DNA of 64,000 nucleotides, taken from positions 91,827 to 155,826 of the forward strand of contig JAJRQO010000021.1 in NCBI GenBank assembly GCA_024280215.1. The letters run 5' to 3'. Below, piece after piece: positions 30,434-50,949 of this stretch. The stretch's first letter is position 1. Every line of letters starts with the position of its first letter. Position numbers and translations under genes: made by a program. A model generated the notes under the pieces. The model saw only the letters and a list, made by a program, of their open reading frames with translations. It ran no database searches and was not told the DNA's origin. The stretch is from Candidatus Zixiibacteriota bacterium (lineage in GTDB: Bacteria; Zixibacteria; MSB-5A5; GN15; FEB-12).

Positions 30434-30755
30434 CTTATCCTATCACAATTATTGAAATAATGGATTTAGTTAGCTTCTATTATTTTATCGACACTCAATT
30501 ACCAATTATTAGTTAATATCATAGTTACTACTAATACATATACCAATTTACCCACGTAAAAGCAAGTGATATTTTTCACAAACTTACTTTAAACCCCACC
30601 TGACAACAAATCTCTTATCGTTCACCTTATCTTATTGGATAACTGATAGTTAAGAGATTATAAGCATGGTAGGAATCAGTAATTATAGGGACATGTATAT
30701 AAAAATAATAGGAGATAGTTTTAATAAATGATTAAACGTTGAATTAAAATAATAA
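30434..30755. other. hydrogenase operon upstream region
   Basis: About 320 AT-rich bases without a coding frame. On the minus strand a weak promoter candidate is TTGGTA-N17-TAATAG at roughly 75-45 bases before hydB. A CRP/FNR-like dyad lies further upstream at 30565-30580. Nothing else is recognised. Confidence 0.4.
30565..30580. promoter_or_regulatory. CRP/FNR-like palindrome upstream of the hydrogenase operon
   Basis: AGTGA-TATTTT-TCACA; on the minus strand TGTGA-AAAATA-TCACT, which matches the CRP consensus TGTGA-N6-TCACA at 9 of 10 positions. It is centred about 140 bases upstream of the hydB start codon. The bound regulator is not encoded in this window: the operon's own cyclic-nucleotide domain lacks a helix-turn-helix. 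Confidence 0.5.
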
Positions 30756-30791
30756 GCCCGTTGGCTGGGGGACATTAGCTAACGGGCTTTT
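30756..30791 (-). terminator. rho-independent terminator of the surface-glycan/repeat-protein operon
   Basis: A 13-bp stem with one mismatch, AAGCCCGTTGGCT / AGCTAACGGGCTT. On the minus strand it is followed by ATTATTTT. It lies 11 bases past the last gene of the long minus-strand run beginning at 46206. Confidence 0.88.
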
Positions 30792-30802
30792 AAAAGATAT
30801 TG

Positions 30803-32728
30803 TCAAGGACAAGCTACGGGTGGTGCTCCAGATGGAGTACCAAACATAAAACTTACCAACCCAACAATATCAGAAATATCAATTATCCCACTCCCATCAA
30901 TATCTGCTTCTTCAAAACAAGGTGGTGGGCTTCCTCCTTGAAAAGAAAATGCTACCATATAAACTAAATCAGCAATATCAACGGAACCCGCAAGGGTGCC
31001 ATCATCAGATCCATAATCAACGTTACCACGAACAACAACACAACATGCAGGTTGACCTGTAGTAAATGATAAATTTAAAGTTTGATTTGTATTCATAGTA
31101 TAGTTGAGTACTTCTGTTGAATCTATATATCCAGACAAAGTATCAGTGCGGCAGAACACATTAAAGCTGCCAGATGGTATCAACACAGAATATTGACCAA
31201 ACAAGTTTGTCTTATCATGTGGAGTATATACAGTATCGCCAGTACTAACATAGGCAACACAAATTTCAGCATTAGAAACCGGTGAGCCAACATTGTCGGT
31301 TACTGTTCCAGACAAAACAAGTCCTGTGTCCAAAGTTACAAACAATGTTGTATCTTGTGTAAAAGAGACATTAAATATTTTTTGAGCCGTTAAAAAATCC
31401 GTAGCCAATGGTTCAAACTCAACATCATAGGTACCTGTCTCAATTACAACAGTAAAAGCGCCACTCGCATCGGTATTATCACCTACAATTGGAATCTTCA
31501 ATTGAGTAGCTGACACTTTCACATCAATATCAGAATTAACAACAGCTCCTCCAGCAGTTTTATCCATAACACCAGACAGAAAAATCCCATCAGCTAAGAC
31601 AACATCTTGATTATAATCAGCCATTACTAAAACATTTAAAAATTGTGCAGGAGCTAACCCCGTAGGTACTTGAGGTTGATAAATTAAATTATATGTTCCG
31701 CTTGGGACAATAACTTGGTAAAATCCACTTGCATCAGTTTTATCACCTGAAGTAACTAATTTAGTACCAGTAGTAAAATCAACAATATCAATATCGACTA
31801 ATTCAATAGGATTAAATAGAGAGTTCGTGATTGTACCTGAAATTAACAAACCTGACTCAAGAGTATAATTTAAAGTAGTTGCACCTGATATTACTACACC
31901 AAAATCATCAAGAGGTACAAAAGGATCACCTGCTTGTGGGGTAACATTAACATCATAGGTACCAAGTGGAACAACCACCGAATAAAAACCTGTACCATCG
32001 GTATTATCACCAGGAGTAACTTGCAGAATACCAGTAGAACTGTTTGTAAAGTCTAAATCCGCATTTACAACAGGAGCACCACCTAATTGCGTAATAATCC
32101 CAGAGACTTCATACCCCAAAGTCATAGTAACATCTATACTTGTATCACTTGCTATTAAAACATTGTTGAGTTCTATTGGTAACCACGGATCCGCAAATAA
32201 TCCTACTGGGCGGTATCGAATACGATATTCGCCTGGAGGTACTGTAATATGGTAAAACCCATTAATATCAGTATTATCTCCTGAAGTAACTAATTTATTA
32301 CCCGACACTTGTTCATACACATTTAAATCAATATCAAATATTCCTTGTCCTAAGCTATCTCTCACAAAACCTGACAGATTATATCCAGCAGCAAGCATGA
32401 CATCAAAAGTTGTGTTCCCACTTACAGAAATACCAGTAAAAGTTTCTCCAAGATGCCCTTGTACAGAAGGGACAAATTCTAAACCATAGATACCGATAGG
32501 CAAGCCAGCAATAGAATAAAATCCTGAGGCATCCGTCACTGTCGCCGGAATCCCAATCGGCCCACCAAACTCATCAAAGAGCAAAACACTAACAGCGGAT
32601 ATAGGTACAAGAGCTGAATCTGTAACTGTTCCTGAGAGCGTAAACTGTGCAGAAACTGATGATGCTGTTAGAATAATGACCGCGAATAAAACTACATAGA
32701 CCTTTTTAATCAAACTAAATCTTTTCAT
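30803..32728 (-). CDS. surface protein with six Ig/transthyretin-like repeats and dockerin-like tail
   Basis: A 641-residue exported protein: signal peptide 1-27, then six ~85-90-residue beta-sandwich repeats of the carboxypeptidase-regulatory-like / CNA-B type, each opening with hxxSGxVxDxxGxPhxxhDhxh and containing TDASGFYxVxVPxGxYxVxFxP. The last ~70 residues are the CCVVVRGNVDYGSDDGTLAGSVDIADLVYMVAFSFQGG dockerin-like tail. The protein is paralogous to the T9SS-tailed protein encoded 41 bases upstream. GGAGG precedes the start. Likely an extended surface stalk; no catalytic motif. Confidence 0.82.
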   Translation of the reverse strand: MKRFSLIKKVYVVLFAVIILTASSVSAQFTLSGTVTDSALVPISAVSVLLFDEFGGPIGIPATVTDASGFYSIAGLPIGIYGLEFVPSVQGHLGETFTGISVSGNTTFDVMLAAGYNLSGFVRDSLGQGIFDIDLNVYEQVSGNKLVTSGDNTDINGFYHITVPPGEYRIRYRPVGLFADPWLPIELNNVLIASDTSIDVTMTLGYEVSGIITQLGGAPVVNADLDFTNSSTGILQVTPGDNTDGTGFYSVVVPLGTYDVNVTPQAGDPFVPLDDFGVVISGATTLNYTLESGLLISGTITNSLFNPIELVDIDIVDFTTGTKLVTSGDKTDASGFYQVIVPSGTYNLIYQPQVPTGLAPAQFLNVLVMADYNQDVVLADGIFLSGVMDKTAGGAVVNSDIDVKVSATQLKIPIVGDNTDASGAFTVVIETGTYDVEFEPLATDFLTAQKIFNVSFTQDTTLFVTLDTGLVLSGTVTDNVGSPVSNAEICVAYVSTGDTVYTPHDKTNLFGQYSVLIPSGSFNVFCRTDTLSGYIDSTEVLNYTMNTNQTLNLSFTTGQPACCVVVRGNVDYGSDDGTLAGSVDIADLVYMVAFSFQGGSPPPCFEEADIDGSGIIDISDIVGLVSFMFGTPSGAPPVACP

Positions 32729-32769
32729 TTCCCATGGACCTCCATAAAAATATACTTACGTTTCTTTTT

Positions 32770-34737
32770 CTATTTTAACAATACAATCTTACGGGAATCA
32801 CTTCCCATTGAAGTAATAATACGATAAATATAAAGACCAGTAGCAACTTTTTCACTTTGTTCATTGTTGCCGTCCCAATGGATTGCATATTCGCCTGGTG
32901 TATATATTTTGCTCGTTAACCGCTTAACTTTTTGTCCTAATATATTAAAAATATCGAGTTGTACATCAGTTCGTTGTAAAATTTCAAAATTTATAGTAGT
33001 TGTAGAATTAAACGGATTCGGAAAATTCTGTTGTAATATAAAATTATTGCCGTTTGAAGAAGTTGGTCTTGTAAATAACTTAAAAGTAAAATTACTATCT
33101 TCCTGTACTAAGATATTCGAATACTGCCCAGTACGCAAGTTTGTTTCTTGTGGCGGATTTACTTTTATATGATACATCCCACTTGGTAAAACTGCTTCAC
33201 CTTTACCGCTTATATCAGTAATAGCATAAGGAGTAAATAATTTCGAAGAAGTTACCGCATCAATTATTTCTATCTCAGAGAACTGAATTGTTTGATCTAA
33301 ATCATCAACAATTGTGAACAACGTTAAAAGACCTTCATCAAGTGTAATCTGACCAGCCGAGGAATCCACAGAAAAAGTAGTTTGTAAAAACTTTTTTGCG
33401 ATATAGTGTGAACCTCGTTGCGGTAAGAATGAAATATCAAAGTTACCCTGTGGAACAAAAAAATTAAAAAAACCTAAACTGTCAGTAAAATTATTAAAAA
33501 GATTTATCTTATAATTTAAATTATAAGTAACCATAGACAGTTCTACATTACGTATACCCAACCCAAAACTATCTACAACTTGCCCTGAAAAATTAATTCT
33601 GGGTGTTTGAAACATAACTAATTCAATAAGCGTATCCTGACTAATAGTAACATTAGGTATAAGTATTTGTTTAAAATCAGATCCCAAAGGAGGGTCAAAT
33701 TTTAGATCATATAATCCTTGAGGAACTGTAACGATAGATTCACCTTCCGTATTGGTCTTATCGTTCGGAGTAAATATTTTTATACCATTATTAGGTAATT
33801 TAAAATCTACATCAGCTTTCGTAATAGGATTACCTAAGGTATCGACAATTCTAATTGTACATACGATACCCTCATCAAGAACTTCATTATAAACAGAGTC
33901 TGCAACAAAATTAAAACTATCTATTAGAACTCCTATATACCTTGAACCTCTTTTGGGAGCGAAACGTAATTGATAGAAACCAGGGTCAACAGCAACATTA
34001 TAATTCCCTAAAGTATCGGTACTGTTGTTTGATGTAAACACTTTAGCACCCGTGATAGCATCACGCAAATCAATATCTACATCAAAAATTGGAAGACTAT
34101 TTATATCCGTTACTGTGCCCGAGAGAAGATTGGTTGGCAACATTGTTATATTAATGATTGTATCATTCGTAATAAGAACTGTATCAAGTTGTACACCTTT
34201 AAACCTGCTATTGAGAGGTGAATCATATCGGATACGAAATAAACCTGGTGGCACCACAACTTCATAAAAACCATTTATAATAAAGGTATTATCGTTTGGA
34301 GTAAATACTCTTCCCCCATTAATAGAATCCACATCTAAATCAACTTCACCAATCGGGTTTCCAAGAAAATCAGAAACAACACCTGATATTGCAATCCCAT
34401 TTTCAAGAGTCACATCAAGACGCTGACTGGTAGTTAAATCGAAATCGAAAACTTGTTTACCTAATAATCCACTACCAATACGAGGAGCAAAAGTAACTCG
34501 ATAAAATGTAGAATTTAGTACTGTAATAGAATACCATCCAGTAATATCGGTATTATCACCTAATGTTATGAGTTTCACACCAGTTTGAGAGTCGATTAAA
34601 TCTAAATCAACATTATCAACTGGGTTACCATTACTGTCACGAACGAAGCCAGAAATAGTTGACAACGCAGATGATACATCATACGAAAAAATTATAATAA
34701 CTATTAAAAATAGTATTTGTTTAATTCTGAGCAGCAT
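32770..34737 (-). CDS. surface protein with six Ig/transthyretin-like repeats and T9SS sorting domain
   Basis: A 655-residue exported protein: signal peptide 1-24, six ~90-residue repeats (STISGFVRDSNGNPVDNVDLDLID…, IAISGVVSDFLGNPIGEVDLDVDS…, and so on) and a T9SS C-terminal domain (QQNFPNPFNSTTTINFEILQRTDVQLDIFNILGQKV…GLYIYRI…SRKIVLLK). It starts 9 bases after the AlgE-like barrel gene with a TAAGAGAG site that overlaps that gene's stop, so it appears to be in the same transcript. It may be a surface scaffold associated with the exported glycan (inference). Confidence 0.85.
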   Translation of the reverse strand: MLLRIKQILFLIVIIIFSYDVSSALSTISGFVRDSNGNPVDNVDLDLIDSQTGVKLITLGDNTDITGWYSITVLNSTFYRVTFAPRIGSGLLGKQVFDFDLTTSQRLDVTLENGIAISGVVSDFLGNPIGEVDLDVDSINGGRVFTPNDNTFIINGFYEVVVPPGLFRIRYDSPLNSRFKGVQLDTVLITNDTIINITMLPTNLLSGTVTDINSLPIFDVDIDLRDAITGAKVFTSNNSTDTLGNYNVAVDPGFYQLRFAPKRGSRYIGVLIDSFNFVADSVYNEVLDEGIVCTIRIVDTLGNPITKADVDFKLPNNGIKIFTPNDKTNTEGESIVTVPQGLYDLKFDPPLGSDFKQILIPNVTISQDTLIELVMFQTPRINFSGQVVDSFGLGIRNVELSMVTYNLNYKINLFNNFTDSLGFFNFFVPQGNFDISFLPQRGSHYIAKKFLQTTFSVDSSAGQITLDEGLLTLFTIVDDLDQTIQFSEIEIIDAVTSSKLFTPYAITDISGKGEAVLPSGMYHIKVNPPQETNLRTGQYSNILVQEDSNFTFKLFTRPTSSNGNNFILQQNFPNPFNSTTTINFEILQRTDVQLDIFNILGQKVKRLTSKIYTPGEYAIHWDGNNEQSEKVATGLYIYRIITSMGSDSRKIVLLK

Positions 34738-34746
34738 AAATCTCTC

Positions 34747-36576
34747 TTAAATTATAAAACTTAAATTCAGTTTCGCATAGGTTGCAGTTTCTTGAGATGA
34801 AGCAAAAGCTTCACCAGGTGTAAACATACTTAATACCAAAGTAGGTTCAACTATTTCAAACAGAACAGGAAAAGCTGTAATAAAATCAATGCCTGAACCA
34901 ATATCATCAGAAAAGCCATTAGGTCTGGCAGGAGGATCATTCAGGTTGCTTCCTTTAATAGTGTTATCAGGAAAGTGCTGTTTGTAGTTATGATACACAA
35001 TATCAAAAGAAATATTACTGGTAGGATAAACTCCAAAACCTAATGTAAATATTTTTAAATTGCTTAGTTCGGGATCGAGCAAGGTTCCATAATAGTACAA
35101 AGAACTCTGTCCATTAAATGAAGCGACATTATCCTGATACGCTGTCTGTCGAAAACGTTCATTCACTAATGGAGTCGATGGGTCATCACCAGTAGCAAAG
35201 GCATACGCTAAAGTAATCGACGGGTTGTATGTCATATCAGATTTGAAAATAGTAGCTCCAATATCAAACGCCTTTCCTTTGGTTTCGTCTCCCTTATCTA
35301 CCCCACTCATAAATGACAACTCAGCCCAAGGTTTAATATTCTCCATCTCTCCAAGATAGCGAACCCCAATCCATTTTGGTTCTCTATTTCGTATGTCAGT
35401 ATCAGACCTTTTTAAATAATATGCAGACATTTGATTATCTTTTTGAAAAAACCAAGTCACCTGCCCAAACAGATCAGTCCAAGTATCAAACTTACTTTTT
35501 ATCGGATTTATAGCAGTGATATATGCCGATTCAAAAATCAAATTTTCTTTTCCATAATAAAAAACTCTAACCGCGTCCATGTAATCATCAAAAAGCCATT
35601 CGCGAGGTTCATCAAAATCTTGACGACCAACTGAAACAGCAAAACCAGCATCAGCTATGTTATGCCAGAGATAATATAGTTGAGTTATATTGGCTTCAAA
35701 ATCTCTTGATGGTAAACCTTGTTCACTTGATAAGACATACCGTTTACGTAAACGTACTTGTGCAAAAGCTGAATGAGAACTATTTATTATCGCGGTTAAC
35801 TCAGTACGAATATCATGTTCGGAATCCTCTTGATCAGTGTTATCAAACGTAGACAGATCATATTCATTTTTACTTAACCAATTTTGTCGGTATTTTATGA
35901 CACCATTAAAATAATCATTCAACATATACCCTTTACCTAAAGAATAGACAGAATTTTTTCTCAAATGCCCAAAAAGATACTTTTCTACTTTATTCAAACT
36001 GCTGGTAGCATTATTTACATCCGTTTTGTTATTAAGAATGATAATCAATCCGGAAACTTCAATTGTATCAGGAGCATTACCATCAATAGCAACCCTTGTC
36101 ACTGTACCTTTTACTTTATGATTCTTCTTCACATCACGAATTTTAATTTTTGTAGCTTTCCAGCTTCCATCTTTGCGAATACGACATGTTACCTGAACAA
36201 GTTGTTTCTTTTTTAAATTTGCTATTGTATTCTTGCTCGTACCATCACTAATAAATTTAGTTTTAGAAGTTATATCAATTTTTTTTCCAAAGAGAGTAAT
36301 TGTTTCTTCTTCTAAATCAATTGATTCAATTTGTCCTCGTAATTTTGGTTTACGAGGTTTTGGTAGTGCCTCAATTTCCAAAGCTATAAAAGATAAGGAT
36401 TCTTTAAAGTATCCTTCTACCTCATACGCTTTGCCAACTTCGATGTTAAGCGAAATATATTCTGGTTCCTTGGCATCTATCTCATGAATACACAATAAAA
36501 GTGCTATCATTAAAATTAGATACGCTCTTAATGTAATCTTTTTATGATTTCCCATTCTTTTACTTATTCCTTTCAT
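34747..36576 (-). CDS. AlgE-like outer-membrane exporter with N-terminal DUF5666-like region
   Basis: A 609-residue protein. After a signal segment (IRAYLILMIALLLCIHEIDA-like region, about residues 15-35), residues ~40-190 hold two small-barrel units resembling DUF5666 (LRGQIESIDLEEETITLFGKKIDITSKTKFI; VKGTVTRVAIDGNAPDTIEVSGLIIIL). Residues ~215-609 match the alginate export family beta-barrel: VGRQDFDEPREWLFDDYMDAVRVFYYG, TLAYAFATGDD, QSSLYYYGTLLDPELSNLKIFTLGFGVYP and a terminal aromatic/hydrophobic strand LNLSFII. It probably forms the outer-membrane pore for the polysaccharide made by the upstream genes. The start at 36576 has AAGGAAG; the longer frame from 36654 overlaps the kinase gene further. 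Confidence 0.75.
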   Translation of the reverse strand: MKGISKRMGNHKKITLRAYLILMIALLLCIHEIDAKEPEYISLNIEVGKAYEVEGYFKESLSFIALEIEALPKPRKPKLRGQIESIDLEEETITLFGKKIDITSKTKFISDGTSKNTIANLKKKQLVQVTCRIRKDGSWKATKIKIRDVKKNHKVKGTVTRVAIDGNAPDTIEVSGLIIILNNKTDVNNATSSLNKVEKYLFGHLRKNSVYSLGKGYMLNDYFNGVIKYRQNWLSKNEYDLSTFDNTDQEDSEHDIRTELTAIINSSHSAFAQVRLRKRYVLSSEQGLPSRDFEANITQLYYLWHNIADAGFAVSVGRQDFDEPREWLFDDYMDAVRVFYYGKENLIFESAYITAINPIKSKFDTWTDLFGQVTWFFQKDNQMSAYYLKRSDTDIRNREPKWIGVRYLGEMENIKPWAELSFMSGVDKGDETKGKAFDIGATIFKSDMTYNPSITLAYAFATGDDPSTPLVNERFRQTAYQDNVASFNGQSSLYYYGTLLDPELSNLKIFTLGFGVYPTSNISFDIVYHNYKQHFPDNTIKGSNLNDPPARPNGFSDDIGSGIDFITAFPVLFEIVEPTLVLSMFTPGEAFASSQETATYAKLNLSFII

Positions 36577-36599
36577 TGCTTCCTTCTGTCCCCACACTA

Positions 36600-37868
36600 T
36601 TAGCTTAAACAGCTTATAGATTTTCTTAATAAATGTACAGTTAACTTTTTCCATCTCGGTCTAAAGAGGTAAATAGTTGCTATTCTCAAAAGTGAAGCCG
36701 ATTCCCACCATATAGCTCTCTCAAGAAATTGGTCATTGCCATCATAAGTATCTTGAAATAATTTCACACCTTCAAGAATCTCCTTTGTGTTCTCGGGTGT
36801 TTGGTAGAGTCGAAGATACAAGTGTGCAATAAAATTGCCAAAATCTAATGCTGGATCGCCAGCAGACAGATTATCAAAATCAACAATTGTCGTTCGATTC
36901 TTAGAATAAAGAACCTGCTTATCATAAAAATCTCTATGAATACATTTTAAATTTGTAACTTGATTAAGTTTTGTACTTGCAGTTTCTAATATTTCAAGAG
37001 CTTCTGTAAACAACTTTGTTTCATTTGGATAAACAGACTGAACAATCGCAATTTGTTTAGATAAATTTCTTAATTCATGTAAAACTGAAAACTCACTGAG
37101 TCCATCTGTTGGTACTGTATGAACTTTTTTGATTATATTAGCAGCTTGTTGGCAACCGATGCCAAAAGAACTTTGACTAATAAGTTCATGAAGAGTTGTT
37201 CCTTGAACTTTTTCCATAAGTAATGAACCTTGCTTCTCATCATACCCATAAATCTTTGGAATTGAGAATGATTCGTTAACAGATGAACCTAATCCATATT
37301 TTTCAAGAAGTCTTGACTTATCAAACAAATCTTTACTTTTATTCTTCTTAACTAATTTTATTATAAAGCTGTTCTTTTTCTGTCCACAAACGCTAATTTT
37401 ATCTTTAGTGAATAATTCTAAGACAGCTCTCCGTTCAAGTCTATAACCTAATACATTAAATTTTATTATATCAAAATTGTTACCTTGAACATCGTTCTGC
37501 AATAAATGTCGAATATTAAACGGTTCATTTTGTTCCGAACAAATTTCTGTAAGAATCTTCAATTTGGGATCATATGGAAAAGATAATACAACTAAATTAT
37601 ATTCATCAATTGAAAAATAATAATCAGTATCTAACTTACTTTTATATTTTTCAAAATCATCTTTTACATGAAAGAGTTTACCATAATAAATTGTATAATT
37701 TTTCGAATCATCAAAATATACATGGTACTGCAACACTAACGCTTTGTTTCGATAGTATAGCCTTGTCATATACACTTTGTCAACATGAACAGTCTTTTCT
37801 AACCCCTTCCTAAAAACAGAAGTGACTAAATCAGAGTCAGTAACAAAATCATAATAATTAAATTCCAT
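36600..37868 (-). CDS. APH-fold phosphotransferase, third of three tandem paralogues
   Basis: A 422-residue kinase-like protein of the aminoglycoside phosphotransferase/choline kinase superfamily. The catalytic loop is IHRDFYDKQVLY (~residues 311-320), with Gln at the position normally Asn, and the Mg-binding motif is IVDFDNLSAGDPALDFGNFIAHL. The N-terminal ~190 residues form an extra module with VYMTRLYYRNKALVLQYHVYF and a second related strand region. The substrate is unknown; a sugar or glycan precursor is likely from the gene context. I use the ATG at 37868, which overlaps the preceding kinase by 11 bases; a Met codon at 37892 is possible. Confidence 0.8.
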   Translation of the reverse strand: MEFNYYDFVTDSDLVTSVFRKGLEKTVHVDKVYMTRLYYRNKALVLQYHVYFDDSKNYTIYYGKLFHVKDDFEKYKSKLDTDYYFSIDEYNLVVLSFPYDPKLKILTEICSEQNEPFNIRHLLQNDVQGNNFDIIKFNVLGYRLERRAVLELFTKDKISVCGQKKNSFIIKLVKKNKSKDLFDKSRLLEKYGLGSSVNESFSIPKIYGYDEKQGSLLMEKVQGTTLHELISQSSFGIGCQQAANIIKKVHTVPTDGLSEFSVLHELRNLSKQIAIVQSVYPNETKLFTEALEILETASTKLNQVTNLKCIHRDFYDKQVLYSKNRTTIVDFDNLSAGDPALDFGNFIAHLYLRLYQTPENTKEILEGVKLFQDTYDGNDQFLERAIWWESASLLRIATIYLFRPRWKKLTVHLLRKSISCLS

Positions 37869-39240
37869 ATGTAGTTTTGTTTTTGAGAACATCTAAAACA
37901 ACTTTCAATATTTTTTGAATTTTCTTTTCCCATTTATTTTCAAACAATCGAAATGGCTTAATTGATAATGACAACAATGAGAAACCAACACAGTAATTTA
38001 ATTTTGTATGGTTAATTTTAAAAACTGTATTATTACTATATGAATCTATAAACTCTATTATAAATAATTTCGCATCAAACTCAATAGCAAATATCTCTTT
38101 ATACAACAAATGAGCGATATAATTCCCTATATCTACATGAAAATCTCCAAAAGTAAATCGGTCAAAATCGAGTATTTTCATCTTGTTTCCCTGAAACAAT
38201 AGCTGTTCGTAAGAAAAATCACCATGGATAAGTACTTCATTATTCGCTTTTTTATTTACTGAAATAGTAGTAAATTCCTTTTCGACTTCATCTATCAATT
38301 TTTTATTTTCGGGAAGAATACTCTTTAGTGACTCGATTGTAGCTGATAAATTGTATTCAGAATTATTTACTGCTTTGAGTGTGTCTCTATTGATTGACAA
38401 TTTATGAATATTTGAAATCAACGATGCTGCCATCATATTAATTTTATGAAATTTTTCACTTTCAATAATTGAACATACATCATCGGCTTGGGCATCTTTA
38501 TAAATCATAAACTGCTTTTCAATATCATAACAAATTGGAACGATTACATTAGGAATATCATTTGAAATAGTATTGAGTAATTCAAAAATAGATTTTCCTT
38601 TTCGTGAAACATCACACTTAATAAAATAATTAATAACTTCTTTTGTTCCCGACTTAATATGTGTTCTCAATGTTGTTACTTTGAGCAAAATTCTTTTTTC
38701 AGGTTTGTATCTTAAAATTTCATATTTCATATTCTTATGAGAAATTCTATATTCATTATTATTTAATAGAGAATCATGACGATAAAGTATTCTTCTTAAT
38801 TTACGAGAATCTAAAATTGAATCGAGAGATTTTATTTCAGAGTCTCCATAAAAAGGATAAAATATTATTTTTGCAGAATCAAAACAGATAGAAACAGAAT
38901 CTTGCTTTCTCACACTCAGATGTAGTCCAAGTGATTTGTTTTTGGCAAGATCATAATTCTCTATAGTATATGCTTTCGCATAAAAATAACTCGTAGAATT
39001 TTCGTTTGATATTTTATGCTGTAGAACAACTTTATAAGTCACAATACAACTTGTATCAGGTTTATATCTGACATAAGAAATCTGATATGATACAAGAGAA
39101 TAATTTGAGCTACGAAAAAACTGCTCTAACGCGTCTTGAACAAACTGATTAGTAAAAAGTATATTTAATCCGCTAATTTTATCATCAACGGGTAATTTAC
39201 TTACAGAATTATCTTTTATGTTATTTTTTGTCATATTCAT
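37858..39240 (-). CDS. APH-fold phosphotransferase, second of three tandem paralogues
   Basis: A 460-residue kinase-like protein. The catalytic loop is LIHGDFSYEQLLF (His at ~339), again with Gln instead of Asn, and ILDFDRFTFGDFHVDIGNYIAHL supplies the metal-binding Asp. Two copies of an RYKP motif occur before the kinase core: SYVRYKPDTSCIVTYKV (~residue 55) and EILRYKPEKRILLKV (~residue 170). It starts 2 bases after the first kinase gene and overlaps the third. Base composition is strongly AT-rich, and the divergence from its paralogues is high. Confidence 0.8.
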   Translation of the reverse strand: MNMTKNNIKDNSVSKLPVDDKISGLNILFTNQFVQDALEQFFRSSNYSLVSYQISYVRYKPDTSCIVTYKVVLQHKISNENSTSYFYAKAYTIENYDLAKNKSLGLHLSVRKQDSVSICFDSAKIIFYPFYGDSEIKSLDSILDSRKLRRILYRHDSLLNNNEYRISHKNMKYEILRYKPEKRILLKVTTLRTHIKSGTKEVINYFIKCDVSRKGKSIFELLNTISNDIPNVIVPICYDIEKQFMIYKDAQADDVCSIIESEKFHKINMMAASLISNIHKLSINRDTLKAVNNSEYNLSATIESLKSILPENKKLIDEVEKEFTTISVNKKANNEVLIHGDFSYEQLLFQGNKMKILDFDRFTFGDFHVDIGNYIAHLLYKEIFAIEFDAKLFIIEFIDSYSNNTVFKINHTKLNYCVGFSLLSLSIKPFRLFENKWEKKIQKILKVVLDVLKNKTTYGI

Positions 39241-39242
39241 AA

Positions 39243-40499
39243 TTATTTTAGAACAATCAAACTTTCATCAAGTAGCTGCATTACTTTTACAAACCAGTTC
39301 TTCCTTAGCCTTCGTAATTCTTTTACTGTCAATTCAACCAAAGCACATCCAGTATAAAATTTTAATTCATTGTTATCAATTTCAATATTAGTTTTGTTCT
39401 TATAAGAGAGTAAAAATGATTCAAATATTTTTTCTGATGATTCGACCAATGACTTAAATTCCAATTTTTTTAATTGAGCATAAAAATTTCCTAAATCAGC
39501 AATTGGTGATCCGATAGCAATACTATCCAAATCAATTATCCAGTTTTTTGATTCCCCAATTAATACTTGTCCTTGATGAAAATCACCATGTATAACAACA
39601 TTGTCTGCATTTTTTAGATTTTGTAGTTTCAACATAAGTGCTATTCTTATTTTATTTATTTTCTTTTGTATTTCAACATTGCCATAAGTAATAATTTTTG
39701 ATGACCTTTCAAATTGATTCACAAATGATAATGGAGCTTTATTTTCAAGGTCACAAATTTTCAATGAGTGAAATTCTGATATAGTATTAGCGAAAACAGA
39801 TAAATCAGCATTATTAATATTGTGAAGCTTATCAGCAAAAGAGATAGCATCAACTTTTTCTTGGATAAGAAGTGAATCTTCTTGAGAGAAATGAAGTACC
39901 TGAGGAACAAATAATGTCTTATGTCCTTTTAATGCTTCAACTACCTTCATGGTTTTCTTGTAAGAATTTTGCACTTTATCAGGTAATTCAATACGTGCGA
40001 TTACATTTTTAAAAGATTGTGATTTATACGAAAGTAATTTATATGTGGCTACAAATCTTGTCTCAGGCTTATATCTAATTGTTTCATACGAGTCATTTTG
40101 AACATCCTGAAGAAGTGGTGATAATTTAAGTTTTCCATCAGCGGGGAACTTACAAATAAGAATATTTGATTCATCAATTAAGACAAAATTTTCACAAGAA
40201 CTTTTCCCAACAAATTCTTGCTTTACTTTTAAATAAATATCATCATTCATACACCTAATATAGTATGTATCGCATTCATTTTTATTCCCAGACTTCACTC
40301 TAAGACTGAGTTGGCAACTTTTTTTAGGGCTATAACGAATATGTTCTATTTTAACTTCAGTATATTCTTTCATAATAGAATTTGAAAAGCTTGAATTCAA
40401 GAGAGTTAAAATTTCTTGGGAATCAATTAGTTTTGCCAAAGGAAGATTTTTATCCTCTGGCAACATACGATTCTTTTTTGTCATTAGTTTTGTTTTCAA
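39243..40499 (-). CDS. APH-fold phosphotransferase, first of three tandem paralogues
   Basis: A 418-residue kinase-like protein. The catalytic loop is VIHGDFHQGQVLI (His304), with Gln for the usual Asn, followed by IIDLDSIAIGSPIADLGNFYAQL. Preceding modules hold HIRYSPKKSCQLSLRV (~residue 55) and TIRYKPETRFVATYKL (~residue 145). The start is TTG at 40499 with AGGTGA about 6 bases before it; an ATG at 40484 is the alternative. It lies 11 bases after the ABC transporter gene. Not an antibiotic-resistance enzyme by context. Confidence 0.8.
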   Translation of the reverse strand: MKTKLMTKKNRMLPEDKNLPLAKLIDSQEILTLLNSSFSNSIMKEYTEVKIEHIRYSPKKSCQLSLRVKSGNKNECDTYYIRCMNDDIYLKVKQEFVGKSSCENFVLIDESNILICKFPADGKLKLSPLLQDVQNDSYETIRYKPETRFVATYKLLSYKSQSFKNVIARIELPDKVQNSYKKTMKVVEALKGHKTLFVPQVLHFSQEDSLLIQEKVDAISFADKLHNINNADLSVFANTISEFHSLKICDLENKAPLSFVNQFERSSKIITYGNVEIQKKINKIRIALMLKLQNLKNADNVVIHGDFHQGQVLIGESKNWIIDLDSIAIGSPIADLGNFYAQLKKLEFKSLVESSEKIFESFLLSYKNKTNIEIDNNELKFYTGCALVELTVKELRRLRKNWFVKVMQLLDESLIVLK

Positions 40500-40510
40500 A
40501 TTTTCACCTA

Positions 40511-42352
40511 CTATTTCAACAGAGAAAAATGTTCTTTTAACATTCTCTCGTCTATTGAAAAGAATTTTTTAAACTCACCATTTTTTTCAAATAATTCTTG
40601 TGGCGTCCCTTGTTCAACCATTCTACCATCATTTATAAATATAACCCAATCAGCCAATGATAAGAAATTAATTCTATGAGTTATAATAAGCATCGTTCGA
40701 TTTTGTTTTAATTGAGCTAAAATATTTTTTGAATCTTTTTCAGCATGCACATCAAGCCCTGTTGCAGGCTCATCAAATATCATAACTGGTGAATTTCGCA
40801 TAGCAGCTCTTGCAAATGATATCTTTTGTCGCTGACCTCCAGATAAAGTCAATCCTCCTTCGCCAACCATAGTCTCATACCCATTCCCTAATTCCATAAT
40901 AAACTCATGAGCTCCAGCCAACTTTGCCGCTTCTACGATCTGTTCTTGAGAGGCACTATTTTTACTAAATGCAATATTTTCAGCAATACTTGTTCTAAAT
41001 AAAAACGTCTCTTGCGCAAGAGGCGTTATACGTTTTCGTAAGCTTCTAACTTTATACTCATCAATATTTTTATCGTCGATAATAATTTCACCGTCAGACG
41101 GTTTATATAATCGTAAAATTAACTTTGCTATTGTCGATTTACCTGCCCCAGTCGGTCCAAAAATTATTGTCGTCTTATTTTGAGGTATCGTACATGAAAA
41201 ATCTTTTAATATTTTCTGTTCTGAATTATAGCTAAAGTTAATAGACTTAAACTGAATATCACCTTTTATTTCTTTGGCAGAGAGTCCATCAGTTTTTTCC
41301 AATATTTCAGGTTCCATTTCAAGTAACTCAATTGTCTTCTCGCCACGAACAGTAGCTTTTGCAATTTTAGATGATAGCTGTGCGACAGTTTTTAACGGAC
41401 GATAAATTCCTCTGAGATATGACAAAAATATCAACAAGTCACCAGGGGTAATTTCATTCGCCAGTGCTTTATTTGTGCCAACCCATAGCACTGCGCACAT
41501 ACCTACTGCCGTTATAATATCAACAATTCGAGCATAGTTTGCGGTTAGCTTAGCGGTTTTCACATTCGCGGTAACATCTTTGTCAATTGAACGTCCGATT
41601 AAGCGTTCTCTTCGTTTCTCTTGTGAGTATGTTTTCACCTGTGAAATACCAGCAAAAGTTTCTTGTACGGATGCAACGATTTTCCCATACATGAGTCTCT
41701 GTTTGCGAGCTGAATCTTTGATTTGAAATGAAAACTTAATCGCAGCTAAGGCAAAAAATGGAAGAGCTGCCAACGCAATAGCGGCAAGTTGCCAATCGAG
41801 CCAAAACATAATTCCAAACATACAGACAATAAGAATAATCTGGCTGGCTAAATTAATAACCATTGATATAAGTAAATCCTGCAATAAACTTATATCACTG
41901 GTCATCCGAGTCATCAGCTCACCTGTTTCTCGATAATCATGATATGACAATGGTAATCTTTGTACATGAGAAAATAATTGCATGCGAATGTTGGCTACAA
42001 GATTGTGACCTATAATTTTGGAATAGACACCATACGTATACGTAAGAAGTCCTCTTAAAACAGCAATGAGTAAAATACCAAATGCGGCTATAAACAATAC
42101 CTCCATCGGTTCTAAATTATTTAGAAACGACAAAGCTGAATCAGCTGTTGCATCAATATCTTTAATAAGAATAAAATCAAAAACAATTTTAAGTGGCCAT
42201 GGTCGTAAGAGAGACAATAGCGTTACACCGAGCAGAGACATAGAACCAACAAAAAGACGCATCTTATGTTTTTTAAGATGCCCGCCAAAATGTTGAAAAA
42301 TTCTTCGGAGCGATTTAAATTTAATTTTGGGTAAATTATATTTTATTCGCAT
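40511..42352 (-). CDS. MsbA-like ABC exporter (fused membrane and ATPase domains)
   Basis: A 613-residue half-transporter, expected to work as a homodimer flipping or exporting a lipid-linked glycan across the inner membrane. Six membrane helices lie within residues ~35-330, with LSYHDYRETGELMTRMTSDI in the first coupling region. The ATPase domain has Walker A GPTGAGKST, the Q-loop AQETFLFRTSIAENIAF, signature LSGGQRQK, Walker B VMIFDEPATGLD with the catalytic Glu, and the H-loop ITHR. It overlaps the preceding glycosyltransferase by 17 bases. Confidence 0.92.
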   Translation of the reverse strand: MRIKYNLPKIKFKSLRRIFQHFGGHLKKHKMRLFVGSMSLLGVTLLSLLRPWPLKIVFDFILIKDIDATADSALSFLNNLEPMEVLFIAAFGILLIAVLRGLLTYTYGVYSKIIGHNLVANIRMQLFSHVQRLPLSYHDYRETGELMTRMTSDISLLQDLLISMVINLASQIILIVCMFGIMFWLDWQLAAIALAALPFFALAAIKFSFQIKDSARKQRLMYGKIVASVQETFAGISQVKTYSQEKRRERLIGRSIDKDVTANVKTAKLTANYARIVDIITAVGMCAVLWVGTNKALANEITPGDLLIFLSYLRGIYRPLKTVAQLSSKIAKATVRGEKTIELLEMEPEILEKTDGLSAKEIKGDIQFKSINFSYNSEQKILKDFSCTIPQNKTTIIFGPTGAGKSTIAKLILRLYKPSDGEIIIDDKNIDEYKVRSLRKRITPLAQETFLFRTSIAENIAFSKNSASQEQIVEAAKLAGAHEFIMELGNGYETMVGEGGLTLSGGQRQKISFARAAMRNSPVMIFDEPATGLDVHAEKDSKNILAQLKQNRTMLIITHRINFLSLADWVIFINDGRMVEQGTPQELFEKNGEFKKFFSIDERMLKEHFSLLK

Positions 42353-43601
42353 GTTCTTCTTTCAGCTCATTTGCTACTTTTATTTTTGCAATTGAAAATA
42401 TCTTTTCAACATCGCCTAAGCGTGACTCCCAGGAATGCTTCGTCTTAGCATCTTCTAAAGCTTGTGAACTAATTTTTTTTCGTAAACTCACATCATTTTT
42501 CAAACGAACAATTGCTTCACCTAATTCTTCTTTGCTACCCGCATCGACCAAAAGAGCATTTTTCTCATTAACAAGTAAATCAGAAATTTGACCTATTGCT
42601 GATGCAACTATCGGTTTTCCTGCGGCCAAATATTCAAATACTTTCAATGGTGAAAAATAAAAATTATCTAACTTTGGATATGGAGCAGTAACAATATCAA
42701 GTTTTGCTATATGTGAAGGAATTGTATTATGCTCTACGGCACCTACAAACTCAACTTTATCAATAAGATCAAGAGCTTCGCATTGGTTTTGAAGTTGCTC
42801 TATATAATCTTTCTGTCCACCTCCGACCAATCGAAGTCTTAACGATTCATCAACCTGATGTATCGCAGCAAAAGCATCAATCAGAATATCTACACCATGC
42901 CAAGGCTTAATAGAGCCTACAAAGCCAATAACAAATTCATCAACAGCATCAGAAGATTTTTTGAGGGTGCGATTATTATCATAATTATCAAGTGATACAC
43001 CATTTGGAACAGTGGTCACCGCTGTCTTTGGAGCAATATTCAATACATATTCTTTTAATTTATCCGATACTGTTATAACATGATCAGCAGTCGTAAATAA
43101 AAATTTCTCAACCGACTTCGCCAACGCTAATTGATTGAGTTGTCTAAATTCCGATGCTTCAAGCACCAAGGGTGCATTTACTTCAAGAATAAATGGAATC
43201 TTAAAATTTTTCGCAAAAACTAATCCAGCAGTTGAAAAAATAGAATAACGTTCATACAAAAGTTCAAATTCGTGATTTTGATAAATAGTAGATATCATCT
43301 GCCCTATTGCTTCATTACGATAATAGTCCGAGGCTTCTTTCATTGTATGTTTATCTTCATTTTGCTTATCTGAACCATTCATGAATTCTATATTAGCAAA
43401 GCCTGGGAGTTGATAGACAGGATACTCATGGTTCTCTGGATTCTCCAACGCAAGCCTTGATGCTGCAATAATTGGTTCATACCCTTTGAGAACTAAAGTT
43501 TTTAAAAACTCCCTAATATGAATAGAAGCACCTTTAGTGCCTCCATATGGAATACCTCTATCAGAGGACAAGTAGAGAACTTTACCTTTTGTATTTGCCA
43601 T
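42336..43601 (-). CDS. GT4-family glycosyltransferase
   Basis: A 421-residue GT-B enzyme. The N-terminal acceptor domain begins KVLYLSSDRGIPYGGTKGASIHIREFLKTL. The C-terminal donor domain has VIGFVGSIKPWHGVDILIDAF, LRLVGGGQKD, and the nucleotide-sugar-binding ExxxxxE block SPLKVFEYLAAGKPIVAS. The start is the ATG at 43601; the in-frame TTG at 43619 is part of the TTGAGG ribosome-binding region. The gene begins 4 bases after the upstream glycosyltransferase stop. It probably adds one sugar to the lipid-linked chain on the cytosolic face. Confidence 0.88.
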   Translation of the reverse strand: MANTKGKVLYLSSDRGIPYGGTKGASIHIREFLKTLVLKGYEPIIAASRLALENPENHEYPVYQLPGFANIEFMNGSDKQNEDKHTMKEASDYYRNEAIGQMISTIYQNHEFELLYERYSIFSTAGLVFAKNFKIPFILEVNAPLVLEASEFRQLNQLALAKSVEKFLFTTADHVITVSDKLKEYVLNIAPKTAVTTVPNGVSLDNYDNNRTLKKSSDAVDEFVIGFVGSIKPWHGVDILIDAFAAIHQVDESLRLRLVGGGQKDYIEQLQNQCEALDLIDKVEFVGAVEHNTIPSHIAKLDIVTAPYPKLDNFYFSPLKVFEYLAAGKPIVASAIGQISDLLVNEKNALLVDAGSKEELGEAIVRLKNDVSLRKKISSQALEDAKTKHSWESRLGDVEKIFSIAKIKVANELKEEHANKI

Positions 43602-43605
43602 CTTT

Positions 43606-44862
43606 TTAATTTGCCTCAATAGTTTTCAATTTTTTTGGAGCGGCAATATTTTTTAAATCATCTATATACATTTCGTATAATTTTCCCGCATTATTTTTAA
43701 GTGAAAAATTGTTTTCAGCAAAGACTCTTCCTTTTTTGGCATATTCTTCACGAAGCTCTTCAGACAAGAGCAACCTCTCAAGCATTTCAGCAAGTTGAAC
43801 AGGTTTTTTTTCTTCGACTAATAATCCGTTATGCTCATGTTTAATAATTTCTGGAATTCCGGAAATCCTTGTAGATATCGATGGAAGCCCAACCGCTAAT
43901 GCTTCAAGTAAAACTGTTGGTAGAGCATCAATATTATTATCTTTCGCAATAATACAAGGTAGACAAAACAGAGTCGCTTCATTCATTAACGATATAACTT
44001 CATCAGATGTTTTAGCTCCTATAAATTGTACATCATCCTGAAGCTGCAATTCCTCCTGAAGTGCCAACAAGTCTTCCTGTTCAGGTCCAGACCCGGCAAT
44101 GACACATTCAAAATCTATTTTCTTTTCTTTTAAGATTTTTAAGGCTTTAAGAAGATCATCAAAGCCTTTCTTCTCAACCAGCCTACCCACTCCTAAAATA
44201 GTTTTTGTTTTCCTTTTAGAAACCGGTACTGGTTGTAATGAATTCAAATTTACACCATTGTATAAAACTTTAATTCTATCCATATTTATTTCAGGAGCTT
44301 GTTCAAATAGATAATTTTTATTAAAATTAGTTACGGTAACTATAAAAGATGCATACTGAAGTTTTTCGCGTAAATAGTGTTCATCCATATCATACACAAA
44401 AATATCTTTTGCATGAGCAGTAAAACTAAAAGGGATTCCACAAATACGATGCGACAAATACGCGATAGTACTCGGGAGTGAAGCAAAGTGAGCGTGTAGT
44501 CTCTCGATTCCTAAACTTTCTACTTTCGAAGTTATCCATGCTGACCGCCAAATATTTTCTATTCTACTGGTATCTTTTGTGCGTAAAGCTTCGTTGATTA
44601 AGTTCCAAATATTGCTATTATATTTTTCTAAACAATCCCACTCATTTGAAATCCATCCTGACCATTTTTTTACATCAAAGTCTTCTAAATAATGAATATG
44701 TGCTTTTAACTCGCCTATCTGTGGATGAAACTTTCCTTCATTTGGTTTTTTAAGTGAGAAAATTGTAACTTCTGCACCTTGTCTCTCCAGTTCTAAAATT
44801 TCATTTAAAATAAAAGTTTCAGAAATCCGTGGGAACATTTTAACTACATATCCGATTTTCAT
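43606..44862 (-). CDS. GT4-family glycosyltransferase (colanic-acid WcaL-like)
   Basis: A 418-residue GT-B enzyme. The N-terminus MKIGYVVKMFPRISETFILNEILELERQGAEVTIFSLKKP is typical of the WcaL/AmsK subgroup, with HAHFASLPSTIAYLSHRICGIPFSFTAHAKDIF following. The donor domain carries ILGVGRLVEKKGFDDLLKAL, VIAGSGPEQEDL and the DALPTVLLEALAVGLPSISTRISGIPEII motif. AAGGA precedes the ATG. It is the second gene of the operon. Confidence 0.9.
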   Translation of the reverse strand: MKIGYVVKMFPRISETFILNEILELERQGAEVTIFSLKKPNEGKFHPQIGELKAHIHYLEDFDVKKWSGWISNEWDCLEKYNSNIWNLINEALRTKDTSRIENIWRSAWITSKVESLGIERLHAHFASLPSTIAYLSHRICGIPFSFTAHAKDIFVYDMDEHYLREKLQYASFIVTVTNFNKNYLFEQAPEINMDRIKVLYNGVNLNSLQPVPVSKRKTKTILGVGRLVEKKGFDDLLKALKILKEKKIDFECVIAGSGPEQEDLLALQEELQLQDDVQFIGAKTSDEVISLMNEATLFCLPCIIAKDNNIDALPTVLLEALAVGLPSISTRISGIPEIIKHEHNGLLVEEKKPVQLAEMLERLLLSEELREEYAKKGRVFAENNFSLKNNAGKLYEMYIDDLKNIAAPKKLKTIEAN

Positions 44863-44898
44863 TTTAAAATTTCCTTCAGTAAAGAAGTTACGAGTTAT

Positions 44899-46206
44899 TT
44901 ATTTGTTGATAAATAATTCACCACAAAAGCGAGCAAGGTTATTTGTACCGTTTAGTTCAATACTATTTTGTGCTCTCGCATTTGTTAAAGGTTGTTGTGG
45001 ATTTTTAAGTTGAGAAAATATTTTTTCTGACAACGACTGAGCTGAGACATCATCAGGATGAAGCATCTCAACCAGATTTAATTCATTTAAACATGTTGCC
45101 CGAATTAGTTGCTCTTTTCGATGCATCACTCTTGGAATCAATAAAGCACGTTTTGCACATCCAAGTAATTCCGTAACTGTGTTATAACCAGCAGTGCTAA
45201 CCACTAAATCACTCTTCTTAAAGTATAATTCGGCATTTTTCACAAAACTTTTAATTGAAACAGGTAGCCCAACAGCTTCTTTTTTAAACCGCTTCACAAG
45301 ATGTTCCTCTAAAAAGGACCCCATTAGAATAACAGTATCAAAATTTATTTCATTTTTATATTCCCGAAGCATTTGCAAATAATTGCCAATAATAATCTCT
45401 CCGGCACCATCACCACCACCGATAGTAACGGTTACCAGAGAGTTATTGCCAGAGTACCTTGGAGGTATTTTACTCGGCAATTTTTTTACAATGTAATTAC
45501 AATAAAAAGTTTTTTTCAGTAAATGTTTCGGAAAATTATAATTCTTTGCTGTCTGATAGACGTTTGGAGAACCATAGACCATAACAAAATCATATAACTC
45601 ATCCAACACTTCGTAAATCCCGTCTTTATTCCAAAGCTCACACACATTTTTGGGTGAGTCAATAATATCACGAAGACCTAAAATTTTTACACAATCTGAA
45701 CCAGATTTTTTAAGCCATTCAAGTGATGGTTGCATTTCTGATTTCATTCCAAGAGGAGAATGGTCAACTAAAAGTAGATGCGGATTATAGTCCTGTATCG
45801 TCTGAAGTAAAATATTTGTTCTGATAGTTAAAATACGTCGATAGGTTGTCCCAAGCGTTCGTGCTTCATATGCTTCAGGACCAACTTTTCGTACGGCTGG
45901 TAATTTCACATAGTCTACACCATCAGGGATTTTAAAACGGTCGACAACAGGAGAACCAGTCACCAACAATATCGAAAGCTTCGGATAATTTTCAATCAAG
46001 GCATTGGCAATTTTTAAACATCTCTGTAAATGTCCTAAGCCAAAAGTATCATGCGAATAAATCATCACCCGCTGACCATAACCAGAAACTTGCTCTCTCA
46101 ATTGCTCCAAGCTCATATTGCTATTAGCAAAATCCAATACATTTGTATTCTTAGATTCATCTTTTCTGAACTGATTAGGAATGGCAATTGTATCTATTTT
46201 ATTCAT
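44899..46206 (-). CDS. MurG-like (GT28-type) predicted glycosyltransferase
   Basis: A 435-residue GT-B protein of the 'predicted glycosyl transferase' type often found beside APH-fold kinases and ABC exporters. The N-terminal domain has VMIYSHDTFGLGHLQRCLKIANALIE, like MurG and UDP-glucuronosyltransferases. The C-terminal domain has LVTVTIGGGDGAGEIIIGNYLQML, a SFVKNAELYFKKSDLVVSTAGYNTVTELLGCAKRALLIPR block that binds the nucleotide sugar, and RKEQLIRATCLNELNLV. It is the first gene after the sigma-54 promoter; a GAGAA site precedes the ATG. Confidence 0.82.
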   Translation of the reverse strand: MNKIDTIAIPNQFRKDESKNTNVLDFANSNMSLEQLREQVSGYGQRVMIYSHDTFGLGHLQRCLKIANALIENYPKLSILLVTGSPVVDRFKIPDGVDYVKLPAVRKVGPEAYEARTLGTTYRRILTIRTNILLQTIQDYNPHLLLVDHSPLGMKSEMQPSLEWLKKSGSDCVKILGLRDIIDSPKNVCELWNKDGIYEVLDELYDFVMVYGSPNVYQTAKNYNFPKHLLKKTFYCNYIVKKLPSKIPPRYSGNNSLVTVTIGGGDGAGEIIIGNYLQMLREYKNEINFDTVILMGSFLEEHLVKRFKKEAVGLPVSIKSFVKNAELYFKKSDLVVSTAGYNTVTELLGCAKRALLIPRVMHRKEQLIRATCLNELNLVEMLHPDDVSAQSLSEKIFSQLKNPQQPLTNARAQNSIELNGTNNLARFCGELFINK

Positions 46207-46252
46207 TAATTCTCATAGTTTTAGAAAACTCATTTTCTCTGAGTTACATTGA

Positions 46253-46269
46253 AGCAAATTCGAAGCCAA
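46253..46269 (-). promoter_or_regulatory. sigma-54 promoter of the glycan operon
   Basis: On the minus strand TTGGC (46269-46265), exactly 7 bases, then TTGCT (46257-46253). This matches the RpoN consensus TTGGCAC-N5-TTGCW in both the -24 GG and -12 GC elements and in spacing. Transcription would start near 46242, about 36 bases before the first glycosyltransferase codon. The next gene upstream encodes a sigma-54 activator. Confidence 0.75.
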
Positions 46270-46353: not shown

Positions 46354-46373
46354 ATTGGTTCATATAAACCAAT
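46354..46373. promoter_or_regulatory. inverted repeat, candidate activator-binding (enhancer) site
   Basis: Perfect arms ATTGGTT and AACCAAT are separated by 6 bases, roughly 110-130 bases upstream of the predicted sigma-54 transcription start. That is the usual distance for NtrC-type enhancers. It also sits 8 bases past the stop of the response-regulator gene, so a weak terminator hairpin is the alternative, but no T-run follows. Confidence 0.5.
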
Positions 46374-47788: not shown

Positions 47789-47827
47789 AACACCCTATCT
47801 ATACAATTTTTCTCAAAAAAGCAATCA

Positions 47828-49282: not shown

Positions 49283-49966
49283 CTATTTATATGCTTTTAC
49301 AAGCATTCTTCGTTCAGAAAAACCAGGAACTTTTCTTGCGGGCTTTAATTCATGATCACGATGAGTCCCCAAGATTTCTACTTTTGAAAAACCTGTCTGT
49401 TCTAATATCTCTAAAATAAAATTTTTGGTCGGTAACATATGCAGATGACCTTTTTTACTCATTTTTCGAACTAATGCTGACAGTTCAGGATGTTCAAGTG
49501 GCACCGCTTCTACAAATTCCAAAAACGCAATATGCTCAGTTAGGTCATAAACACGGTCTAATACTTGCATTGGGAATTTCAGATGATGAAATACCGCAAG
49601 AAAAAGCACATAGTCAAACCGACCTAATTCTTTTCTTTTCAATGAAAGAATATCAGTCGCCATAAATTTAACTTTGGAATTAAAGAGTGATTTTACAAAT
49701 TCAAATTTCTCTTTAGCCTTCGGGCTTTTATCGACAGCAATTATTTTCGATGCACCTCGTTTTTCAAATTCGAAGGAATAAAACCCTTCATTGCTCCCTA
49801 TATCCAAAACAGATTTTCCTGAAAGGTCAGCAGGTAACCCCATCAACTCGATTTTTTTTGATTCAGACTCACCAGTTTCTCCGTCCGTCACAATACCGTT
49901 GCCAAGTGGAATAGACTGATACCAATTAAATTTATTTGCTTTTTCTTGTATAGTTTTGCTATCCAA
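49283..49966 (-). CDS. SAM-dependent methyltransferase
   Basis: A 227-residue class I methyltransferase. The SAM site is SVLDIGSNEGFYSFEFEKRGASKIIAVDKSPKA, motif II FDYVLFLAVFHHLKFPMQVLDRVYDL, and the N-terminus FNWYQSIPLGNGIVTDGE resembles the CmoB/DUF1698-like subgroup that also occurs in polysaccharide clusters. The start codon is TTG with AAGGATG upstream; no ATG fits. It is 17 bases after the epimerase. A role in capping or decorating the glycan is plausible but not shown. Confidence 0.82.
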   Translation of the reverse strand: MDSKTIQEKANKFNWYQSIPLGNGIVTDGETGESESKKIELMGLPADLSGKSVLDIGSNEGFYSFEFEKRGASKIIAVDKSPKAKEKFEFVKSLFNSKVKFMATDILSLKRKELGRFDYVLFLAVFHHLKFPMQVLDRVYDLTEHIAFLEFVEAVPLEHPELSALVRKMSKKGHLHMLPTKNFILEILEQTGFSKVEILGTHRDHELKPARKVPGFSERRMLVKAYK

Positions 49967-50940: not shown

Positions 50941-50949
50941 ACGACCTCA

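Follow-up and report, generated by a model that had tools for sequence, protein, structure and literature searches.

A predicted operon for a surface glycan, with APH-fold kinases, in a Zixibacteria genome

Organization of the locus

The stretch of DNA analysed here, referred to as the window, comprises 64,000 nucleotides from a Candidatus Zixiibacteriota bacterium (assembly GCA_024280215.1, contig JAJRQO010000021.1, positions 91,827 to 155,826), whose genome assembly totals 3.03 Mb in 42 contigs. Its central feature is a run of ten minus-strand genes at 30803-46206, which the original prediction had put forward as a single unit for the synthesis, export and display of a surface glycan. All ten open reading frames (ORFs) and their Pfam families were recovered, with intergenic gaps of -55 to +41 nt. 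The run begins with gt28 (44899..46206), which encodes a GT28/MurG-like glycosyltransferase (GT28 C-terminal domain PF04101, 52 bits; syntenic in relatives), followed by two GT4 glycosyltransferase genes, gt4a (43606..44862; PF00534, 143 bits; best NCBIfam match EpsE-like, under its cut-off) and gt4b (42336..43619; PF13692/PF00534). An ATP-binding cassette (ABC) half-exporter of the MsbA/HepA/PglK type (40511..42352), fusing membrane (PF00664) and ATPase (PF00005) domains, precedes three APH-fold kinases: A (39243..40499; HGDFHQGQ ... DLD; PF01636, 36.8 bits), B (37858..39240; HGDFSYEQ ... DFD; 27.5 bits) and C (36600..37892; HRDFYDKQ ... DFD; 37.0 bits), all over the curated PF01636 cut-off of 23.2 bits. 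The last three genes encode an AlgE-like outer-membrane barrel with an N-terminal DUF5666 (34747..36654; PF13372, 90.3 bits against a cut-off of 25.2; PF18914, 50 bits) and two CarboxypepD_reg surface proteins, repeat protein 2 or rep2 (32770..34737; PF13620, PF18962) and repeat protein 1 or rep1 (30803..32728; PF13620, 116 bits).

As called, with its start at 36654, the AlgE-like ORF overlaps kinase C by 55 nt. Because a signal peptide follows the Met at 36576 or 36555, the overlap is likely not real and the true start probably lies near one of these positions, 36654 being too early. The run ends at an intrinsic terminator on the same strand (30754..30789; -17.1 kcal/mol, z -5.1), and folding bore out the predicted stem-loop, which scored far better than shuffles and is followed by a T-rich tail. 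This terminator, which has a long loop, was overlooked by a consensus scan and recovered by folding; that scan gave 8 terminator-like sites where 7.9 were expected and 101 promoter-like sites where 85 were expected, and is uninformative on internal breaks.

Conservation of the gene set

The comparison set consisted of 98 related genomes, including that of the window. Strong matches to the GT28 protein (E < 1e-80) were found in 12 of them, and searches with the kinase B profile, the kinase C profile and the AlgE-like protein each returned exactly those 12 genomes and no other. Two independent sets of 12 would coincide by chance with a probability of about 1e-15, a figure that shared ancestry raises. 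The 12 genomes span five families, and only 5 of the 54 genomes of the window's own family bear the cluster. In relatives, the gene order is fixed: epimerase, histidine kinase, NtrC regulator, nucleotide-sugar dehydrogenase, GT28, GT4a, GT4b, ABC exporter, kinases, AlgE-like protein, and repeat proteins 2 and 1, the dehydrogenase slot being missing in the window genus. On these comparisons, the ten genes are one conserved, all-or-none gene set, and the fixed order and co-occurrence support the view of a single unit for synthesis, export and display. It had also been asked whether the kinases might be unlinked from the glycosyltransferase and ABC genes in relatives; they are not, as searches with the kinases and with the glycosyltransferase single out one and the same set of 12 genomes.

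The linkage extends further. Among 80 homologous GTDB loci, 18 carry kinases beside the same glycosyltransferases, and they come from at least six phyla. Outside Zixibacteria, one to three kinases adjoin these glycosyltransferases in Nitrospirota, Chloroflexota, Acidobacteriota, Myxococcota, Pseudomonadota and Eiseniibacteriota.

The kinases

The His and Asp of the HxD motif and the DxD motif are invariant in alignments of the kinases, and the idea that the window kinases are pseudokinases was dropped on account of these conserved catalytic residues. At the second metal position, A, B and C all keep a Gln, as in glucosamine kinase; in the Streptacidiphilus enzyme, Gln305 and Asp317 hold magnesium ions (PMC6520443). 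AlphaFold2 models of kinases C and B (pLDDT 87.5 and 88.3, respectively) place an N-terminal helix and three long strands ahead of the kinase N-lobe, and the resulting two-part N-lobe would resemble the maltokinase cap (PMC4306142). Foldseek assigns both to the fold shared by APH, choline kinase, methylthioribose kinase and maltokinase, and among the matches listed, maltokinases alone align over the whole of kinase C. A substrate is unreadable from the fold, since the TM-scores on the query are only 0.35-0.5. Sequence searches of the PDB with the kinases returned generic APH, methylthioribose kinase and maltokinase matches. In Pfam, none of the window kinases matched PF06293 (Kdo/WaaP kinases), and their scores against the spore kinase models TIGR02906/NF053880 (CotS/CotI) reached at most 32.9 bits against a cut-off of 172.7.

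Two kinases, B and C, are found in most relatives, and the number ranges from one to three. Kinase A is restricted to three-kinase lineages, found in the window genus and one further genome (G045), and another genome (G061) has three kinases. Three thus appears to be a lineage-specific number and two the usual one, and the notion of three kinases for one product does not hold as a general design. In one genome (G058), B and C are fused into a single 937-residue protein with two APH domains, which points to joint action. Outside Zixibacteria, the first kinase tends to carry HGDLHxxN, with the usual Asn at the metal site, and the second HGDxHxxQ, with Gln; the two types form separate clades. Between the window genome and G003, two species of one genus, the kinases are 46-66% identical and the glycosyltransferases and ABC exporter 76-85%, which makes the kinases the fastest-changing enzymes of the set.

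Some further features of the kinase genes were observed. Those of the window (36600-40499) have its lowest GC content, 27.5-30%. Homologous clusters of other phyla can contain a histidine-phosphatase-family gene, either between the kinases, as in two clusters from Chloroflexota and Pseudomonadota, or in kinase-free versions (L058:17166-17819, L051:17509-18198, L076:16443-17144). Two Nitrospirales clusters have three kinases, of which the middle one (L064:17523-18743, L073:17531-18733) scores 54 bits against APH but is without the H[GR]D catalytic motif and is possibly a pseudokinase.

Export and surface display

The ABC exporter scores 377 bits against the MsbA model TIGR02203, whose cut-off is 602, and is outscored by four other exporters of the genome; its identification as the housekeeping MsbA was therefore dropped. 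The AlgE-like protein matches AlgE structures with a phmmer E of 0.001. In kinase-free clusters of Acidithiobacillus, Sulfuriferula and acidobacteria, the position downstream of the ABC gene is taken by A8, a conserved protein of 300 aa unrelated to the AlgE-like barrel, with a signal peptide and an aromatic C-terminus but no family or PDB match, which is likely an outer-membrane barrel. Given the AlgE-like barrel here and A8 there, a core of GT28, two GT4 enzymes and an ABC exporter plus an outer-membrane barrel seems to be the common layout, the kinases being an optional module.

Both surface proteins contain the predicted six repeats, with six matches to a repeat hidden Markov model in each, of about 88 residues apiece. 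Rep2 carries a type IX C-terminal sorting domain (TIGR04183, 41.7 bits against a cut-off of 23), and the genome encodes a PorU sortase (693 against 420 bits), so that rep2, not rep1, qualifies as type IX cargo; by eye, most rep2 homologues with an intact C-terminus share the domain. In rep1, no type IX signal was found, and its C-terminus is dockerin-like by eye, with no Pfam match. A second type IX cargo lies elsewhere in the window (55446-58376), a subtilase with a Por_Secre_tail domain, and the genome has about 40 type IX C-terminal matches.

Control region

Directly upstream of the run, at 46382-49267 on the minus strand, lie the genes of an NtrC-type response regulator with receiver, sigma-54 AAA+ and HTH_8 domains (46382..47788), the predicted activator, and of its partner histidine kinase (4HB/HAMP/HisKA/HATPase; 47828..49267), both assigned by Pfam and synteny. 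Between the regulator gene and the first gene of the run, a palindrome, TGGTTnAnnTnAACCA, occurs with no or one mismatch in 10 of 14 clusters, and was matched as well in only 0-1 of 300 shuffles. The window copy, TGGTTTATATGAACCA (46356..46371, minus strand), is a predicted binding site of the adjacent regulator, and the whole genome has only two such sites. About 100 bp downstream stands a sigma-54-like -24/-12 element, TTGGCTTCGAATTTGCTT (46252..46269, minus strand), the predicted operon promoter, which fits 11 of the 14 consensus letters, a fit equalled in 0 of 300 shuffles. In six further clusters, a comparable element is separated from the palindrome by 98-104 bp, and in one more by 118 bp.

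With rpoN present in the genome, all the elements of a sigma-54/NtrC-controlled operon can be predicted here: a -24/-12 element, an upstream palindrome, an NtrC-type activator and the sigma factor gene. The simplest reading of the palindrome, the sigma-54-like element and the regulator pair is a dedicated switch for a single operon. Its conserved predicted promoter offers a handle on when the gene set is switched on.

In Planctomycetota, the same GT28 enzyme is fused to a response-regulator receiver, some with PAS (L038:6736-11203, L039:7144-11194, L041:1132-5837, L042:516-4951). These fusions adjoin a histidine kinase with DUF5666, a domain also present in the AlgE-like protein, and the arrangement appears to be a two-component system with a glycosyltransferase as its output.

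A model for synthesis, phosphorylation and export

Taken as a whole, we judge it probable, with a fair margin for error, that the run is a dedicated surface-glycan operon in which regulated synthesis is followed by phosphorylation, export and display. In this model, the histidine kinase and NtrC pair would sense an envelope or environmental signal, the regulator would bind the palindrome at 46356-46371, and transcription would proceed from the sigma-54 element at 46252-46269 through the ten genes to the terminator at 30754. The GT28 enzyme would prime a lipid or other membrane acceptor, which the two GT4 enzymes would extend with sugars including uronic acid. In the cytosol, the APH-fold kinases, usually B and C and here also A, would phosphorylate sugars of the nascent glycan or activated precursors. 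The MsbA-type exporter would then flip the product and the AlgE-like barrel would take it across the outer membrane, and the two repeat proteins, one of them a type IX cargo, would be displayed alongside and may anchor or organize the glycan.

The nature of the product can be narrowed from the gene families. In most relatives, a UDP-glucose/GDP-mannose dehydrogenase gene stands ahead of gt28 (the window genome carries its copy elsewhere), and homologous clusters of other phyla contain heparinase II/III-family genes; together, these suggest a uronate-containing product. The original prediction had missed both this uronate signal and the sigma-54/NtrC control. Against PDB sequences, GT28 gave generic UGT/MurG matches only. 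A phospho-glycan is plausible, and phosphorylation of the glycan or its sugars before export is the most likely role of the kinases.

Several observations weigh against this model. Enzymes with an APH fold also phosphorylate proteins, and small molecules other than sugars. No recognized polymerase, initiating enzyme or tetratricopeptide repeat scaffold was found in the gene set, so that the product may be a short glycolipid and not a polymer. Of the 80 homologous GT28 loci, 62 have no kinases, some of these loci being truncated, which makes the kinases an optional addition to the core. The repeat proteins are found in Zixibacteria clusters only, and one of the two is without a known sorting signal. 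Lastly, the sigma-54-like element was not found in 5 of the 14 clusters tested.

Other explanations for the kinases

An unlikely but serious alternative is that the kinases, like maltokinase and glucosamine kinase, supply a sugar phosphate precursor by synthesis or salvage and thereby feed nucleotide-sugar synthesis with no decoration of the glycan. The HGDFHxGQ catalytic loop and DFD motif, which match those of the Streptacidiphilus glucosamine kinase, speak for it, as do the two-part N-lobe of the models, like the maltokinase cap, and the Foldseek alignments of maltokinases to kinase C over its full length. Nevertheless, two to three divergent kinases exceed the needs of one precursor, the cluster is without a pyrophosphorylase or nucleotidyltransferase, and scores of 14.7-16.8 bits fall far short of the NCBIfam maltokinase and glucosamine kinase equivalog cut-offs of 375 and 550.

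It is improbable that the kinases instead cap or terminate the chain, setting its length and licensing export in the manner of WbdD in ABC-dependent O-antigen synthesis. The layout is ABC-dependent, the kinase genes adjoin the exporter gene, and an S-adenosylmethionine (SAM) methyltransferase gene (49283..49966, minus strand; by Pfam) lies beside the cluster in the window genus and in one other. That gene, however, is not conserved with the cluster by synteny, the exporter, a half-transporter of the fused MsbA type, has no glycan-binding domain, and capping would leave more than one kinase unexplained.

More doubtful still is a mainly structural or regulatory role as glycosyltransferase partners, as suggested for some Bacillus spore kinases. 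CotSA assembly needs CotS, and several spore kinases are pseudokinases (PMC2860764); the kinases here also evolve faster than the other genes. Against such a role, kinases B and C of Zixibacteria show no variation in their catalytic His, Asp, Gln and DxD residues. That unrelated same-strand genes stand together by chance, for which nothing speaks beyond the generic nature of several families, is refuted by the shared order and all-or-none occurrence of the set in five families and can be set aside with near certainty.

Relation to known systems

The surface polysaccharides of Gram-negative bacteria are usually assigned to one of a few routes, the Wzx/Wzy, ABC capsule and synthase pathways, and as tested, the gene set fits none of them. 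As predicted, no Wzx/Wzy or KpsC/S-type Pfam match occurs among the ten genes, and the exporter is fused, not of the separate Wzm/Wzt type of an ABC-dependent capsule system (KpsMTCS). Alginate export shares the Alginate_exp-family barrel of AlgE and a likely uronate-type product, but Pfam revealed no Alg8/Alg44 synthase or AlgK scaffold among the ten genes, the inner-membrane step here is an ABC exporter, and the barrel has the extra DUF5666. HepA, PglK and ChvA are likewise fused ABC half-exporters of glycans or lipid-linked glycans, and the window exporter scores under half of each of their equivalog cut-offs.

In the lipopolysaccharide (LPS) core, the kinase-fold enzymes WaaP and WaaY phosphorylate sugars of the glycolipid core in the cytosol before export by an MsbA-type flippase. 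The order proposed here would be analogous, but the kinases are of the APH family (PF01636), not PF06293, and no heptose or Kdo enzymes occur in the run. Maltokinase and actinobacterial glucosamine kinase have in common with the window kinases the two-part N-lobe, the HGDFHxGQ loop (kinase A) and the DFD motif; they differ in their genomic setting, identity is 11-13% by Foldseek, and specificity residues are at most partly kept.

The claim that the architecture departs from textbook pathways thus holds for the Wzx/Wzy and ABC capsule routes, but it is less unprecedented than supposed, as spore clusters of Bacillus and Clostridium also bring GT4 enzymes together with kinases of the APH type. 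The Bacillus cluster, whose members are lost jointly, comprises two such kinases, two GT4 enzymes, an epimerase and a UDP-glucose dehydrogenase, and in Clostridium, three kinases form one operon flanked by glycosyltransferases; the substrate of the spore kinases was unknown when the clusters were described in 2009 (PMC2860764). These clusters (ytaA/cotI, cotS, cotSA, ytcABC), with several APH-type kinases alongside GT4, are the nearest precedent, and the parallel raises a common question, the substrate of glycosyltransferase-linked APH-fold kinases. The spore clusters nonetheless belong to the Gram-positive spore coat and have no exporter, outer-membrane barrel or GT28, and the window kinases, at 33 bits, fall far short of the 173 bits that the CotS model requires. 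By the criteria applied to the sequences, the set belongs to neither the spore-kinase clusters nor the WaaP/WaaY-MsbA system.

We tentatively raise the possibility, to which we give somewhat less than even weight, that Gram-negative bacteria have a class of glycan secretion not described before, with related gene sets in at least six phyla. GT28 and GT4 enzymes would build a uronate-containing phosphorylated glycan, paired APH-fold kinases would modify it, an MsbA-type exporter would flip it, and a barrel, AlgE-like or of another kind, would let it pass. A search of the open-licence literature turned up no account of such a cluster, which is weak evidence of absence.

Neighbouring genes

Two sizeable ORFs elsewhere in the window (54200-55291 and 60272-61675) have no Pfam match. 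Upstream of the methyltransferase gene lies a frequent cluster neighbour, a nucleoside-diphosphate-sugar epimerase/dehydratase gene (49984..50862, minus strand; PF01370, 184 bits). As called, this ORF lacks the nucleotide-binding start of the protein, and the frame runs on upstream (49984-50941) through VVVTGGAGFIGSHLVES; because it stays open with no common start codon, the epimerase likely uses a rare one.

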